Origin: Herpetosiphon giganteus | GTDB taxonomy: Bacteria > Chloroflexota > Chloroflexia > Chloroflexales > Herpetosiphonaceae | Assembly: GCF_016907925.1 (NCBI RefSeq) | Contig: NZ_JAFBCZ010000028.1 | Coordinates: 1-64,000 of the forward strand | DNA length: 64,000 nt | Direction of reading: 5' to 3' | Shown: piece by piece, positions 3,977-12,277 of the stretch | Position numbering within the stretch: position 1 is the first letter of the stretch | How the letters are laid out: each line of letters begins with the position of its first letter | The notes under the pieces: generated by a model | Databases searched by the model: none | Told to the model about the DNA's origin: nothing | What the model saw: only the letters and a program-made list of their open reading frames with translations | Program-made: the position numbers and the translations under genes

Positions 3977-4903
3977 TTAGTCATTATGCCGACTCCGCTC
4001 GATTCCTTCAGCAATCAGCCGAGCCAGCGGGTGATCGGGAGCTAGGGCAATCGTGTGCGCTCGCTGATGGGCTTCCGCATACCATGTTGCAGCGGTCGGA
4101 TAGTCCAGCGCAAACTCAGCCACCAAGGCACGGTGATAGGCCGTCGCCATCCACAGCCGTGGCCCATCTGCCTGCGTAAACAGGCTGGCTTTATGCGTAT
4201 CCACCAGCTGCACCAACAGTGTCACGGCCTCGGTTGCCTGCGGGAAATCTTCCTGATGTAAAAGTGCCTGAATCAGCAAATCCCACGTTTGGATATGTTT
4301 GATGCGATCCGCATCCTCCGGCAACATCGCCCACAGTGCCAGTGCTGCCCGATAGTCGCGAACAGCCTCCCCAAACTCGCCATAATCTATCCATGCCACG
4401 CCGCGCAAACCCAACAACTCGGCCCGCTGCCGCGCCGTCCAACCGACTGTTTCCAGCGCCTCATCCGCCCACGCCATGGCCTCAACTACCCGCCCATCGG
4501 CCAACGCCATGGCAATCTCGCCAACCGCCGTGTACCAGTCTTCATCCTGCGGACTCGTTGGCTGGGCTTGCAGCTGCGCCAATACCGCCAGCAATTCGGC
4601 ATTGACCGTGGTCGCTTTGGCGGTCGTGGCCAACAGGGTTTCAAGCTGGTGTAGGGACACTCCGGTGGGATTGAGCTGCTGCCAGCGGCGACCTTGCTCC
4701 GCGTAGATCGTCAAGAAATGGCGTTGTTCTTCGTACATCCCCACCGCACGATCAATCGTGGCCGCATCAAGCAGGCCCGGTCGTTGCACCGCGACCTGCA
4801 TATTCTCCAGCTGCTCCTCAGCCTCGGCCAAGGCTTCATCGGCCATCATCACCAGTGTGGGCAGCATCGTGATCGGTTGCCAGTGAATCGGTTCGCGTTC
4901 CAT
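3977..4903 (-). CDS. TPR-like helical repeat protein
   Basis: 308 residues, almost wholly alpha-helical. The second half (about residues 120-300) has repeated helix pairs of about 34-40 residues with small residues at the TPR positions (for example AELLGLRGVAWIDYGEFGEAVRDYRAALAL, quoted in part), which suggests tetratricopeptide repeats and protein-protein binding. No catalytic motif or signal peptide is seen. The start at 4903 is supported by GGAAGGAT upstream. It diverges from the promoter at 4959. The partner is unknown. Confidence 0.55.
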   Translation of the reverse strand: MEREPIHWQPITMLPTLVMMADEALAEAEEQLENMQVAVQRPGLLDAATIDRAVGMYEEQRHFLTIYAEQGRRWQQLNPTGVSLHQLETLLATTAKATTVNAELLAVLAQLQAQPTSPQDEDWYTAVGEIAMALADGRVVEAMAWADEALETVGWTARQRAELLGLRGVAWIDYGEFGEAVRDYRAALALWAMLPEDADRIKHIQTWDLLIQALLHQEDFPQATEAVTLLVQLVDTHKASLFTQADGPRLWMATAYHRALVAEFALDYPTAATWYAEAHQRAHTIALAPDHPLARLIAEGIERSRHND

Positions 4904-4958
4904 GCGTTATCCTTCCGTTCAACACTGGTTCTATCCTAGCCCATGCGTCAAGATCGAG

Positions 4959-4987
4959 TTGACAAGCCCATGCCCGCTTGCTATACT
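4959..4987 (+). promoter_or_regulatory. consensus sigma-70 type promoter
   Basis: TTGACA (4959-4964), 17-base spacer, TATACT (4982-4987). This near-perfect promoter faces right toward the long cluster beginning at 5480, which would give a leader of nearly 490 bases. The first transcribed bases contain a small hairpin (GTGAT-GCCG-ATCAC). Confidence 0.7.
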
Positions 4988-4994
4988 CATCCCC

Positions 4995-5479
4995 ATGTGA
5001 TGCCGATCACGGCTCGCTGGTTTTCAATCGAAGGATCGCGCCGCTGCGCCATGGTCGCTGCCCGCCGTTGGGATGTCTTTTGACACACAACCCCAACCGC
5101 CAGTCGCCACCACCGCCCAGTCGCCCGACACCCAGATTGACCAATCAGCCGATTCCAATTCAGCATTGCACGCACCTTCAGAACGGATAGCAAACCGAAC
5201 ACCACGCCGAGAGGCTTCTGCAACTGCGTGGTGGGGGACATCGCCGCATCCTCTCCCTGCGGCGCTTCACGGTGGACAATCCGTCCGCTTTTTTCTCCGT
5301 CAGTTTTGACGTTTTTACCCACTGGCCATGCGCCATTCCATGCGTGTTTACACGGATGGGTGTTTTTGCGTGTCCGGTTTTGGTTTGCCCGCTGCTATGT
5401 CTCCCATCAGGGGGACGGTCTTTCGATTGTATCGATTGCCGTCTCTCGCTGGCGGCATCTCTCTCTTAAGGAGTCTCAG
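4995..5479 (+). other. long leader region without a convincing gene
   Basis: Between the promoter and the first well-supported gene there are about 485 bases. One open frame (5073-5309, 78 codons, Gln/Pro/Ser-rich) starts with ATG but lacks a convincing ribosome site. I see no recognised riboswitch or terminator here. Confidence 0.35.
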
Positions 5480-7188: not shown

Positions 7189-8361
7189 ATGTCGTCCCTG
7201 TTTGCCCTCCTGCCCGAAGCCCATCGCTTCTGGCACGCCTTCACCCGCCTGCGTCGATTCCCCCTGCTTTCTCAGGAGGAATGGGATGATCCATTCATCA
7301 CCGCCGTCGCAGCTGCCACTGCCATGCACAGCCCCAACCGCCTGATGAGTCAAACGGTGTTTGTGGGCATGCTTCCGGTGGTCGAGGCCATGCAGGCCGC
7401 GATCACCAGCCACCGCAATCCTGATGATTCCATCACCCAAACGCTCAGCGCCGATGCGATGAAGCAGGCCCTGATCACCATGCACCAACGATCGCGCGCT
7501 GGCCTGTTCAGCGCACAACCAACCGCCCACGACCAAATCCTGACCGCGATCATGCTCCACGGCCTCGCGTGTCCCGATGCCCCATGGGTTGTTGCTGACA
7601 CCCATGTCAGTCGGACACTCGCCGCCACCAATCCGTTTCGGGGTCGTCCCCACACCCTCCACCACCGCATGCTCGATCTCCCGTCCAAGGAAACCGTGCC
7701 CGTGGTTGCGTGGTGTGTTCTTCCCCCGAATCTCTTGCCAACCGGCAGCGACATCCCCACCATTGGGGCGTTGACCGTCGTTGGCAGTAGCGCCAAATGT
7801 GCTGCTGCGTGGGCCTCGATCCTTGATGGGTCGCGCCACGCCATCACCCTTCCGCAGGTGCCTCTTACGCCCTTCCTTGCGCTCGGTGGCGATCTGCCCT
7901 ATCACCAGATTGGGAAACAGGTTGCCCACAAAGCCGCAGGAACCCAGCAATACCGCACGCTGCGCAATGAAACGCCGTTGCCGTCCTCGCGACTGGCCAC
8001 CACCACCATCCTCCACCGCTCGGTGCTCACACCACAGGCGGGAGAGGATTGTTTGCACCTCACGGGTATGGACGGGCTTCCCAACCATGCCATCCTGTGG
8101 GCGCAACTTGAACGGGCCTGTCCGTTGCCACTCCAGCCCCACTGGCTGGATGATCTCTGGCACGTGGGCCGCACCCATGGGCTGATTGTCCAACTCCCCG
8201 CATGGGGCTGCGCTGGCTATTGGCTCAAAACATCCGCGATTGCCGACTGGGCACGGATTATCCGCGCCATTGTCACGAAATCGCCCGTTACCACCGCTGG
8301 CGTAGCGGTTACGACCATCGGCAAAAAGAGTGCTGCGGCAGAAAAGGCCGCAGCTCGTTAA
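7189..8361 (+). CDS. hypothetical protein, 390 residues
   Basis: Soluble, mostly helical protein with no motif I can name. It lacks a signal peptide, membrane segment, P-loop or Cys cluster. The C-terminal 30 residues are Ala/Thr/Lys-rich and low in complexity. The start at 7189 follows CGAAAGGATG; the frame is open from 7111 but the upstream part overlaps the spacer hairpin. It lies directly before the methyltransferase gene. That context suggests DNA processing, but nothing in the protein shows it. Confidence 0.55.
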   Translation: MSSLFALLPEAHRFWHAFTRLRRFPLLSQEEWDDPFITAVAAATAMHSPNRLMSQTVFVGMLPVVEAMQAAITSHRNPDDSITQTLSADAMKQALITMHQRSRAGLFSAQPTAHDQILTAIMLHGLACPDAPWVVADTHVSRTLAATNPFRGRPHTLHHRMLDLPSKETVPVVAWCVLPPNLLPTGSDIPTIGALTVVGSSAKCAAAWASILDGSRHAITLPQVPLTPFLALGGDLPYHQIGKQVAHKAAGTQQYRTLRNETPLPSSRLATTTILHRSVLTPQAGEDCLHLTGMDGLPNHAILWAQLERACPLPLQPHWLDDLWHVGRTHGLIVQLPAWGCAGYWLKTSAIADWARIIRAIVTKSPVTTAGVAVTTIGKKSAAAEKAAAR

Positions 8362-8438: not shown

Positions 8439-9854
8439 ATGGCCCGTTTAGCCAACACCGCCAATCATGGCTTTCAAGCGCTCGATCCTGCTGCCGTTGC
8501 CCTGCTCGCCACCTACGTCACTGCGGCCAATCCTGCCGCCTGTCGGATCGCTGATCCGTGCGCAGGCGAAGGCGCAGCTGCGAGGCAGTTGGCCCGTGCA
8601 TGGGGCATTCCAGCGGATCGACTCTATCTCAACGAACTGCATACGGAGCGGGCGGCGGCCTGCCGAGGGATAACCCCGAATACCACCAGTTGTGACACCG
8701 TGCGCTGGCTCCGTGCCAATCGCCATGGGCTGCAAGTGGTCTATCTCAACCCACCCTTCGGCACCCAAGCCGCAGGCGACGAACGGAGTGAACTCCAGTT
8801 CTTTCGCCGCGTGATTGAAGAAGGCAATTGGCTTCAGCCAGGTGGAATTGCGATCCTCGTGACTCCCCAAGATGTATTTGCCAAGCCTGCGGTCACCCAG
8901 CATCTCGCCCGTCATTATGACAACCTCACCATCATGGCCCTGCCTGCCGCCCTGCGGCGCTGGCGGGAAGCCATCGTGATCGGCGTTCGGCGTGCCCGTG
9001 CCCGCAGTGGCCAAGCGCTCAGCGACCTGATCACCACCCTTACGACCCAGCTCGCGCAGCCCTTGCCGGAATTAACCGCGCAAGCCGCGCCGCGCTATAC
9101 CATTCCGGTGGCCACCAACGCGACCATGGTTTGGGAGGATGCCACCATTGGCACGCCCGACCAAGCCACCACCGATGTGGTGGTAACCGGTGGAGCCACG
9201 AATACCCGCGCCTATCGCAGTGCGATTGATGCCCTCCGTATCGCCCATCTGCGTCCCCTCGGCCCGCTGTCCGCCACCGCTGCGGCGGCACGGATTGCGA
9301 CCGGGGAAATTAACGGCGCGACCATCGTCATTCACGGTCGGCCCCATATCATCAAAGGCTCGACCACCGAAGACCAAACGGTCTGGGTGGAAACCAAGGA
9401 AGAAGGCGATACGACCACCCTGATCACCCACCATGTCACGCGACAGGTTCCGGTGGTCATGACGGTCGATGTGGCTGATGGCAGTGTGTGCCGCTATGAA
9501 GGCGATGCTGGACTGCAAAAACTCTTGGCTGATCCGGCCACCGCCGAGGCGTTACTCGCCGCCATCACCGAGGTCGCCCCACCTGTCTATGCCTACGATA
9601 TGGATGATCAGACCGCCGCGACGCTGGCCATGCTCAAACGCAAGGATGGCCGCACGTTGCCAGGCTACGAGAATGGCCTGCTGCCCATGCAAAAACATGT
9701 CGTAGCCGGAATTACCCGTTACCTGACCACCCCTGATCCGCGCACGGGCACGCGTCCGAAAGGCACGCTGCTCAATGCGGAAATGGGTTCAGGCAAGTCC
9801 ACCATGGGCATTGCGATTGCCCACTGGTTCCACCAACAATCACTGACGAAATAA
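8439..9854 (+). CDS. N6-adenine methyltransferase-like protein ending in a helicase motif I
   Basis: 471 residues. The N-terminal part has a Rossmann-type SAM motif DPCAGEG (residues 39-45) and NPPF (104-107), the catalytic motif of N6-adenine DNA methyltransferases, as in DUF6094-type proteins. A linker (about 170-420) follows. The last 50 residues look like the start of an SF2 helicase: LLPMQKHVV and then AEMGSGKST (447-455, Walker A). The chain stops 16 residues later, before any other helicase motif; those are in the next gene. The start follows AAAGGAG. In related elements the two parts are often one chain; here they are separate, a gene fission between motifs I and Ia. Confidence 0.75.
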   Translation: MARLANTANHGFQALDPAAVALLATYVTAANPAACRIADPCAGEGAAARQLARAWGIPADRLYLNELHTERAAACRGITPNTTSCDTVRWLRANRHGLQVVYLNPPFGTQAAGDERSELQFFRRVIEEGNWLQPGGIAILVTPQDVFAKPAVTQHLARHYDNLTIMALPAALRRWREAIVIGVRRARARSGQALSDLITTLTTQLAQPLPELTAQAAPRYTIPVATNATMVWEDATIGTPDQATTDVVVTGGATNTRAYRSAIDALRIAHLRPLGPLSATAAAARIATGEINGATIVIHGRPHIIKGSTTEDQTVWVETKEEGDTTTLITHHVTRQVPVVMTVDVADGSVCRYEGDAGLQKLLADPATAEALLAAITEVAPPVYAYDMDDQTAATLAMLKRKDGRTLPGYENGLLPMQKHVVAGITRYLTTPDPRTGTRPKGTLLNAEMGSGKSTMGIAIAHWFHQQSLTK

Positions 9855-9868
9855 ACCGAATGATTCTG

Positions 9869-9902
9869 CCACGGGAACCGCACGCATGCGGCCATCCCGT
9901 GG
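9869..9902 (+). promoter_or_regulatory. nested stem-loop between the two helicase halves
   Basis: CCACGGGA (9869-9876) pairs with TCCCGTGG (9895-9902); inside, CCGCA pairs with TGCGG around CGCA. It lies between the stop at 9854 and the AGGAG site of the gene at 9950, so the second half has its own translation start. Confidence 0.55.
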
Positions 9903-9949
9903 GGGATGGTCAGCGCAGGGCGTTCTCGCTATCAACAGGAGTCCCTGCC

Positions 9950-12277
9950 ATGACCACACCAACCACCAAAACCAAAGCGGCCTTTACCACCATCGTTGCT
10001 GGCCCAATTCACCTCGTTGGCACGTCCGAGCAAGTCGCGGCCTATTACACCCATGGCACGGGCGAATTGCCGCCATGGTGGGCCGAATGGGATCAACTTC
10101 TCGGCGATACCTGGGCGATGGATATTCTGGAATCGCCCAGTGATGTCAGTCGCTTTATGCGCGCTGCCGAAGTTCATCCCGACCTGCCGCGCGTCGGCTT
10201 TATCTCGAACTCCAAACTCAAATTGGAGTCGGGCTATGTGCTTGGTGCAGAGGATCGCGACTACGACCACACGGCCCAGCACCTGCACCGCTACTGGCAG
10301 TCCCTGCCGGAAGCCATGCAACAGCGCTATGCCCGCTTTGGCTCGTTGGCCACGATTGAGGGAATGCTGATGCGTCGTGAGGAGTGGGTTGATGCCCGTT
10401 GGGGTAGTGCCACCCATGAATCCGATACCCGCATCGCACTCGCCAAAAAAACCAAAACCAGCACCGAAGGCCGTATTGCCGCTGATGCAACCGCGACGGA
10501 TCGCCCCATTCGGCGTGCGATCCCGCTGCTGCGTATGGGTGGCCTTGCCTGCCCCCGCTGTGGCTGGCTGCAACGCAAAACCGATGGCGCAGTGCTCGAT
10601 GCCAAACAGCTCAAGCACCGTGGCCTCGCCACCGTGACCTGCCCGCATTGTCACGACCACCTCGGCCAACAATGCCGTGAGCGTGACAATGTGCAGGATC
10701 GCAGCCTGCCCATCTTCCAGTCCGATGACTGGCAAACCTACGCCGTCGATGCCAACGGTCGCCGCACCATTCCGTGGGGCCAGCGTCCGCGCTCGAATCC
10801 TCGGATGGCCCTCGCATCCTTCATCCAGCGCCGCTACCCCCAACGCGTCGATCTCTTCATTCATGATGAAGCGCACGAGACGAAGGGGGCACGCACCGCG
10901 CTCGGCCACGCCTTTGGCGCGATGGTCGCCGCCAGCCGCACGACGGTTGGCATGACCGGCACCGCCTATGGCGGCATGGCCTCGACACTCTACGATTTGC
11001 TCCTTCGCCTTGGCAACACCGTGATTCGGGATCGCTGGGGCTGGAACAATCGCAGCGCCTTTGTGCGCGATGTGGGGGTTGTCGATGTCATGACCAAGGA
11101 AATCACGCGCGCGGCAACCGCTGGACACTACGATGGCCAAACCCGCACCAGCACCGAGGTGCAAGAGCGGGCAGGCATTACCGCCGACCTGATCACCATC
11201 GTCCAAAACTGCACCTATACCGTCCTGCTCAAGGATATGGGTTTTCAGTTACCCGACTACCGTGAGGATGTCGTGCTGCTGGATCTGCCCACCGACATGC
11301 AGGCCCAGTATCGGCGCATCGAGGACGACGGCAAAGCGATCATTGGCAACGGCGGCTACGATGCCCTCTCAGCCTACCTCCAAGCCACCTTGTCATGGCC
11401 CTATCAGCCATGGCGACTGAAATACATCAGCTCGCAACTGGTGAATGAGAAGGTCAAGACCCCCGTCTTGCCTGCCGAACGCATCCTGCCCCACCATACG
11501 TGGTTGGCCCAGTATTGCGCCGCGCAGATCCAGCAGGGCCGACGCGTGTTGCTGTTTGCGGAACATACCGGGAACGATGACATTGCCGTCGATCTGGCGG
11601 AAAAAGTCACCGCCCTTGCCCACGAACAGCACCAAACGACCCTCAAGATTGCGATCCTCCGCGCCACAACCGTGGCTCCGGGCGAACGCAACGCGTGGTT
11701 TACCGAGCAGGTCGCACAGGGAGCCAACGTGGTGATCTGCAACCCCCGTTTGGTCAAAACCGGCCTCAACTTGATCGCATGGCCCAGCATTGTGGTCGTC
11801 GAGCCGCTCTACAGCCTCTACGATCTCTTTCAGGCCAAGCGCCGTGCCTTCCGACCCACCCAAACCCAGGGCTGCGAAGTCACCTTTCTTGGCTACACCA
11901 AGACCATGAGTCAACGCGCCTTAGGGATTGTGGGCCGCAAAGCCGCTGCCGCAACCATGTTAAGTGGTGACGACAGCGAAGGCGGCTTGCTGGAATTTGA
12001 TCCGGGCATGAGTTTGCTCCAAGAGTTGGCCAAGCAATTACGCAGCGCCAACCCCATGGACGATGCAAATACCCTCCGCGATCAATTCCGCAGCGTCGGA
12101 CAGGCGATCAAAGTGGAAGCCGAACGACCGAGCTTGGTGCTGCCTGCGACCGCAACCCCAGCAACCATCGACGAACCTGTTGAGCAACCCATCGCATGGG
12201 ATACCTTGTTCACGGTCGTCGATGTCCCGACCTGCAAAGCAACGCAGGTCGCCCACCAGTTCGCCATGGTGCTGTAA
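9950..12277 (+). CDS. SF2 helicase lacking motif I (second half of split helicase)
   Basis: 775 residues. It begins at motif Ia-like sequence (VAGPIHLVG) and has no Walker A of its own. A zinc-ribbon-like insert (CPRCG and CPHCH near residues 203-232) precedes the DEAH box (about 305-308) and an MTGT motif III. Motifs V (TGLNLIAWP) and VI (QAKRRAFRPTQ) follow near 605-635. The ATP loop is supplied by the end of the preceding protein, so the two would have to assemble to act. The start at 9950 follows AGGAG. The probable role is DNA translocation or unwinding coupled to methylation; target unknown. Confidence 0.75.
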   Translation: MTTPTTKTKAAFTTIVAGPIHLVGTSEQVAAYYTHGTGELPPWWAEWDQLLGDTWAMDILESPSDVSRFMRAAEVHPDLPRVGFISNSKLKLESGYVLGAEDRDYDHTAQHLHRYWQSLPEAMQQRYARFGSLATIEGMLMRREEWVDARWGSATHESDTRIALAKKTKTSTEGRIAADATATDRPIRRAIPLLRMGGLACPRCGWLQRKTDGAVLDAKQLKHRGLATVTCPHCHDHLGQQCRERDNVQDRSLPIFQSDDWQTYAVDANGRRTIPWGQRPRSNPRMALASFIQRRYPQRVDLFIHDEAHETKGARTALGHAFGAMVAASRTTVGMTGTAYGGMASTLYDLLLRLGNTVIRDRWGWNNRSAFVRDVGVVDVMTKEITRAATAGHYDGQTRTSTEVQERAGITADLITIVQNCTYTVLLKDMGFQLPDYREDVVLLDLPTDMQAQYRRIEDDGKAIIGNGGYDALSAYLQATLSWPYQPWRLKYISSQLVNEKVKTPVLPAERILPHHTWLAQYCAAQIQQGRRVLLFAEHTGNDDIAVDLAEKVTALAHEQHQTTLKIAILRATTVAPGERNAWFTEQVAQGANVVICNPRLVKTGLNLIAWPSIVVVEPLYSLYDLFQAKRRAFRPTQTQGCEVTFLGYTKTMSQRALGIVGRKAAAATMLSGDDSEGGLLEFDPGMSLLQELAKQLRSANPMDDANTLRDQFRSVGQAIKVEAERPSLVLPATATPATIDEPVEQPIAWDTLFTVVDVPTCKATQVAHQFAMVL

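Follow-up and report, generated by a model that had tools for sequence, protein, structure and literature searches.

How can a helicase motor work when its P-loop is encoded in a different gene? This question is raised by two neighbouring open reading frames (ORFs), here called A and B, in Herpetosiphon giganteus (assembly GCF_016907925.1, contig NZ_JAFBCZ010000028.1; the window analysed here is the whole stretch of 64,000 nucleotides (nt) from position 1 to 64,000 of the forward strand). A preliminary description, made from the letters of the window, had proposed that A and B are a methyltransferase-helicase split between helicase motifs I and Ia. In this study, comparison of both chains with their relatives leads us to consider it likely that A and B together make up a single SNF2-type DNA translocase, coupled to a methyltransferase and built of two chains, which would use ATP only in the A-B complex.

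The N-terminal part of A is assigned to the DUF6094 methyltransferases, as residues 2-223 match Pfam PF19587 (E 3.7e-12, 46.1 bits against a cut-off of 22.8). The chain carries the adenine-type active site NPP(Y/F) in the form NPPF, and the solved folds matched by a structure model of A include BpuSI, M.BseCI and M.TaqI, among others. The C-terminal part of A reads as the beginning of a motor. A blastp alignment pairs residues 369-467 with 21-102 of a plasmid helicase from Stutzerimonas (E 1.4e-8), and the possibility that the Walker A region of A is unrelated to the helicase, which the preliminary description had left room for, is not borne out; judged from sequence, this region is part of the helicase's own N-terminus. 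The Walker A motif, AEMGSGKS, lies 17 residues before the end of A, with one helix after it, so that A does end just past Walker A as had been described. The companion claim for B holds equally: its N-terminus, AAFTTIVAGPIHLV, aligns with motif Ia of single-chain relatives, and it has DEAH and motifs III, V and VI, with no P-loop. In a motif alignment of a same-frame orthologue, the chains of the window and 21 viral helicases, motifs I, Ia, II, III, V and VI are all present in order, motif I on A and the others on B, which also contains LVKTGLNL. No single chain thus holds a complete ATPase core; since B is without a P-loop and the P-loop is on A, neither alone is a complete SNF2 ATPase. Among family databases, B matches PHROG 62 (DNA helicase, E 7e-19) and no family above its Pfam cut-off, and the NCBIfam search returned nothing useful. 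When solved structures were searched by sequence, B alone had only chance hits, at up to E 1, and lacked a relative at E<=0.001; the profile of alignment A1 had none at E<=0.01.

The split is kept throughout the genus as sampled here. Our genome search covered 100 genomes, that of the window included and six of them Herpetosiphon, and B was matched in 13 of the 100, with five of the six Herpetosiphon genomes among them (G000, G001, G003, G004 and G005, not G002). The search with A gave an identical Herpetosiphon pattern, five genomes having both ORFs and one having neither. All six Herpetosiphon loci are split at the same position, namely five orthologues and L027, a second copy of about 50% identity in H. 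geysericola that is likewise split. One orthologue lies on plasmid pHAU01, where A is Haur_5232 at the end of the record and B is Haur_4999 at its start, the record origin coinciding with the A/B junction. A and B are in different frames in the window, as stated earlier, and the frame of B relative to A is 2, 2, 0, 1, 1 and 2 in the window, L021, L023, pHAU01, L026 and L027, respectively; because the offsets take all three values, a common frameshift joining A and B is excluded. The ratio of nonsynonymous to synonymous substitution rates (dN/dS, Nei-Gojobori) over the 10 orthologue pairs was 0.036-0.098 for A 361-471, 0.081-0.175 for A 1-360 and 0.082-0.179 for B, figures that are pairwise counts among five related sequences and not independent events. 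By this sequence measure, both A and B are held under purifying selection. The split in six of six loci, the varied offsets, the purifying selection and the single-chain relatives described below together uphold the earlier proposal that the split is a settled fission, not one frameshift.

Relatives in the same order show the two parts undivided. In G067 and G047 a single open frame (1336 and 1331 codons, respectively) carries P-loop and motif Ia together, G038 has a single chain likewise as far as the contig end, and G066 has a much more divergent single chain of 1317 codons. Further matches in the order comprise G045, in which the N-terminal part is missing, contig C158 of G059, with stops, contig C319 of G059, a distant helicase that has a P-loop of its own, G076, a fragment, and the broken copy in G080 described below. 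The single-chain methyltransferase-helicases of loci L028 and L029, with about 41-44% identity to A and B, have the same order of parts, share the window's upstream neighbour and have a RadC gene nearby, but differ in that motifs I and Ia are on one chain with a short loop between. In plasmids of Thermus, Stutzerimonas, Thermoanaerobacterium and Vibrio, DUF6094 and DEAD/DEAH helicase genes are likewise separate neighbours; in contrast to A and B, the gene boundary lies outside the helicase, which has the P-loop. The helicase carries its own P-loop in all five plasmid loci, and the nearby methyltransferase is a DUF6094 gene in four and, in Bacillus, an unannotated gene weakly similar to A. At the phylum level 45 of 400 genomes match, and 21 loci were scanned: the P-loop lies in the helicase frame in 15, three show none in a frame truncated where the stretch begins, and three have no qualifying frame. 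Searches of viral contigs with the close family alone found no relative, and broader profiles brought up helicases, almost all of which carry the P-loop themselves; it lies in the helicase frame in 21 of the 22 viral loci scanned, the exception being L096. A gene like that of the DNA polymerase III beta subunit (dnaN) was also seen near the helicase in L028, L029, L030, L032 and L042, the assignment being annotated in L042 and made by eye from the translation in the other four.

How the split arose is answered differently by different trees. In the tree of B, the six split rows stand together (SH-aLRT 86) beside the fused rows of the order (100); in the tree of A and in the joined A+B tree, the split rows are not grouped, and in the latter L027, G080 and the fused rows form the sister group of the five orthologues. 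Grouping the split rows together was not rejected on the joined tree (p-AU 0.39). Since the fused clade is nested beside split copies in that tree, re-fusion in the fused clade is possible, and these trees suggest that the gene may have been split once, or twice, or once followed by re-fusion. In the copy of G080, a genome of 1640 contigs and 7% contamination, A stops at GAF-stop just past the P-loop helix, and B resumes at RAFTVIV on another contig; the ends of the two contigs, C96 and C594 (L081 and L036), share 131 nt found nowhere else in that genome, which suggests that the ends adjoin, with roughly 0.4 kb between the halves. With A frame-broken and B truncated, this copy is decayed.

A further indication comes from the second copy of H. 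geysericola. A of L027 is 889 codons long and has a 413-residue element between the Lys and the Thr of the P-loop (K, then CVCAG...SHN, then T). The element is an intein by its kept Cys1 and terminal His-Asn, with Thr next; it matches PF14890 (Intein_splicing, E 9.6e-11) and LAGLIDADG_3 (E 1.9e-18), and is similar to the solved GyrA and DnaB inteins. An intact-looking intein at this site suggests that the P-loop of A probably remains necessary. Since the C-extein consists of no more than the short end of A, splicing would restore a P-loop still without the rest of the motor domain. According to PMC5050341, the Lys-Thr junction is a classic P-loop intein site; within the limited literature searched, nothing turned up on inteins of Herpetosiphon plasmids, and one genome paper turned up for pHAU01. 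Two viral P-loops are also interrupted. In L071, examined separately, a group I intron (4877-5172; RF00028, 97.5 bits) with a LAGLIDADG-like frame lies in the P-loop codons of a viral helicase, and in L096 (about 5050-5330) the viral P-loop codons are broken by about 0.25 kb with no long protein frame and no Rfam match. P-loops are common targets of inteins and introns, thus interruptions there are unremarkable by themselves.

Structure models are consistent with a shared motor lobe. A and B of L023 are in one frame, so the locus is foldable as one chain, and a tethered model was made from L023 A residues 340-471, the translated gap and B, with the single stop read as Q and 27 alignment rows (mean predicted local distance difference test (pLDDT) 68.5, predicted template modelling score (pTM) 0.64). 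The tail of A forms a helix (77-91), a strand (103-108), the P-loop and a helix (114-138) at pLDDT of about 80-91, with the translated gap at 30-40 and the motif Ia strand at about 90. Compared with solved folds, the model matches SNF2 motors (Foldseek best 1.1e-15); INO80, SRCAP, CSB, ISWI and others give Z of 22-26.5, mostly with a root mean square deviation of 3-4 A over about 410-450 residues, and INO80 (VIA-align Z 26.5) aligns from model residue 56, inside the tail of A. The modelled tail thus fits the first strand and helix of motor lobe 1. In a model of A alone (10 rows), the methyltransferase core is good but the P-loop strand does not appear. Because docking is favoured by the tether and by the single-chain rows, the tethered model shows compatibility, not binding.

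On this basis, an ancestral single-chain gene would have been cut in the loop between the helix after the P-loop and the strand of motif Ia, and the tail of A (strand 1, P-loop and helix 1) would fill its own place in lobe 1. The other lobe-1 elements are all on B, so that ATP binding and hydrolysis would occur only in the A-B complex, with the methyltransferase riding along with the motor. That the complex is obligate, as the preliminary description had suggested, we infer from sequence and model, because B keeps Walker B and the arginine fingers under selection and could use them only with the P-loop of A. The pair is predicted to have ATPase activity, a methylation target and an anti-restriction role; by analogy, its likely job would be to move along the element's own DNA and methylate it for protection from restriction.

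Several points weigh against this two-chain translocase. ATP bound by A might serve a function separate from the motor, or B might act without hydrolysis; the tethered model is not an independent test of the binding of free chains, its overall pLDDT and pTM are only those given above, and the model of A alone was built on a different alignment. The decayed G080 copy is broken at the very position of the Herpetosiphon split, thus a break at that point is no sure sign of a functional enzyme in two chains. If the P-loop served A alone, for ATP sensing or switching of the methyltransferase, B would be a non-hydrolysing DNA clamp. Two separate chains are compatible with such a division of labour and nothing speaks for it positively, but the tail of A is by sequence the helicase's own N-terminus, Walker B and the arginine fingers of B would be useless without a P-loop, and the P-loop strand is unformed in the model of A alone, thus we consider it unlikely. 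Less probable again is a decaying pair, in which the methyltransferase A would carry a mere relic as its tail and the helicase B would be dead or dying, even though the order contains decayed copies (in G059, with stops; in G045, lacking the N-terminal part; in G080, broken and truncated) and motif VI differs from the usual RRSWRIGQ. Against it, dN/dS is well below 1 in all 10 pairs for the tail of A and for B, the P-loop, DExH, TGT and both motif VI arginines are kept, a similar motif VI variant occurs in the single-chain L028, and the intein in the P-loop of A looks intact.

The two frames could also be joined in translation by a programmed frameshift, a hop or read-through, the working enzyme being one chain. 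In the window the open frame of B reaches 115 nt back into A, where a slip could fuse the chains in principle, and in L023 the parts are separated only by a stop codon and an open 31-codon gap. However, the open frame of B begins directly after the stop of A in L023 and 86 nt after it in L027, leaving no overlap of the frames in either, the offsets are 0, 1 and 2 among close relatives, the gap length varies from 92 to 101 nt, and B has a start and a ribosome site to itself, both conserved, all of which make such joining very improbable. For a sequencing or assembly error that split one gene in the window we found no support, and the same two ORFs and conserved spacer recur in four other orthologues, which come from separate assemblies and include one from a finished plasmid record; the chance of such an error is negligible. 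To the two-chain translocase may be added a bolder proposal, which we advance tentatively and hold to be somewhat doubtful: the ATP site would be built between the chains, with the P-loop from the methyltransferase subunit licensing hydrolysis and assembly acting as the on-switch, and the motif I/Ia region of the family would be a site that tolerates breaks and undergoes them repeatedly. Under this proposal, the second copy of H. geysericola would be gated once more by its intein, and the breaks at motif I/Ia would be the Herpetosiphon fission, the intein, the group I intron, the second viral-contig interruption and G080.

Features of the A/B locus, in window coordinates
Feature	Position	Strand	Remarks
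Upstream gene, possible partner	7189..8361	+	390 amino acids, no Pfam match
ORF A	8439..9854	+	471 amino acids; DUF6094-type DNA methyltransferase, then N-terminal part of SNF2-type motor
NPPF methyltransferase active-site motif, residues 104-107	8748..8759	+	N104, P105 and P106 invariant in 10 homologues
Motor N-terminal segment on A, residues 361-471	9519..9851	+	blastp to plasmid helicase N-terminus; dN/dS
Walker A / motif I, AEMGSGKS	9777..9800	+	aligns with motif I in each of 21 single-chain viral helicases
Spacer A-B	9855..9949	+	95 nt; 92-95 nt across five orthologues, 101 nt in L027
Hairpin after stop codon of A	9869..9902	+	arms 9869-9876/9895-9902, CCACGGGA/TCCCGTGG
Hairpin around ribosome site and start codon of B	9907..9956	+	arms 9907-9920/9943-9956
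AGGAG, Shine-Dalgarno of B	9937..9941	+	kept in orthologues; one base changed in L021
ORF B	9950..12277	+	775 amino acids; SNF2-type motor from motif Ia on, without P-loop
Motif Ia, PIHLV	10004..10018	+	alignment A4
CxxC...CxxC zinc-ribbon-like insert, residues 201-234	10550..10651	+	Cys 201, 204, 231 and 234 invariant in alignment A1
Motif II, DEAH	10865..10876	+	alignment A4
Motif III, TGT	10955..10963	+	alignment A4
Motif VI, QAKRRAFRPTQ, both arginines kept	11831..11863	+	alignments A2, A4

The start of A at 8439 is correct as given. For B, the start at 9950 is preferred in orthologue comparison over an upstream in-frame ATG at 9860, because orthologues conserve this start together with its ribosome site and the upstream candidates vary among them. 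The preliminary description had counted a hairpin and a ribosome site in the gap as signs of the split; both are present, but the hairpin as a mark of the split does not stand. Similar hairpins occur at most gene boundaries of the operon, and six of the seven gaps examined in the window stretch fold with z below -2, thus the hairpins of the A/B gap mark an ordinary boundary. The outer arm of the hairpin after the stop of A is slightly changed in some orthologues, and the start region of B folds with z = -3.70 in the window and -1.47 to -3.56 in five relatives. Seven gene starts of the window (6149, 6817, 7189, 8439, 9950, 12366 and 13107) fold unusually well, with z of -2.16 to -3.72, and at several of them, between 6149 and 13107, the ribosome site sits within a hairpin; starts below z -2 make up 7 of 11 tested, whereas among 57 internal windows the share is 5%, and among other starts of pHAU01 it is 1 of 12. 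Common translational control of the operon starts is possible.

The upstream 390-amino-acid neighbour is also found at the single-chain loci L028, L029 and L034 and at L027, with 30-34% identity. A correspondence to the N-terminal extension of Firmicute helicases was not supported, the hhalign probability being 6.6. The other neighbours of A and B are RadC, a weak SWIM match and an FtsK-like protein, and together with the conserved 390-amino-acid protein they fit a plasmid maintenance or transfer region.

The locus also carries a warning for annotation. B falls below every Pfam cut-off and A is scored as a plain methyltransferase, thus the motor is invisible gene by gene. If a RecA-like lobe stays cut between motifs I and Ia across a genus, supply in trans would be possible even for the site of a superfamily 2 (SF2) motor that is under the strongest constraint. 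Such a natural split motor, for which the single-chain relatives serve as matched controls, could tell how far methylation and translocation are mechanically coupled in the methylase-helicase pairs of plasmids and phages.

It has been described by Iyer et al. 2017 (PMC5512222) that methylase-helicase dyads with SWI2/SNF2 motors occur on phages and conjugative elements as one chain or as neighbours, that translocation-coupled methylation of incoming DNA has been proposed for them, and that DarB has an N-terminal LPD36 domain. The Herpetosiphon pair resembles the DarB-type dyad in its NPP(Y/F) adenine-type methyltransferase, its SWI2/SNF2-related motor and its place on a mobile element (pHAU01), the three features on which this likeness was judged. 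It differs in that the cut lies inside motor lobe 1 and the P-loop goes with the methyltransferase; by analogy we take the pair as a methylase-helicase dyad with its boundary shifted into the motor. Our searches on DUF6094, split helicases and gene fission, in sources available in part, found no helicase split between motifs I and Ia; as far as these searches show, the methylase-helicase pairing is already known and a split within one RecA lobe is undescribed in the literature searched.

That one enzyme can be made from two genes is familiar from Cas3'/Cas3'' and split reverse gyrase, in which the cuts lie between domains. The Herpetosiphon split likewise involves two genes, but here a single RecA-like domain is cut between motifs I and Ia.

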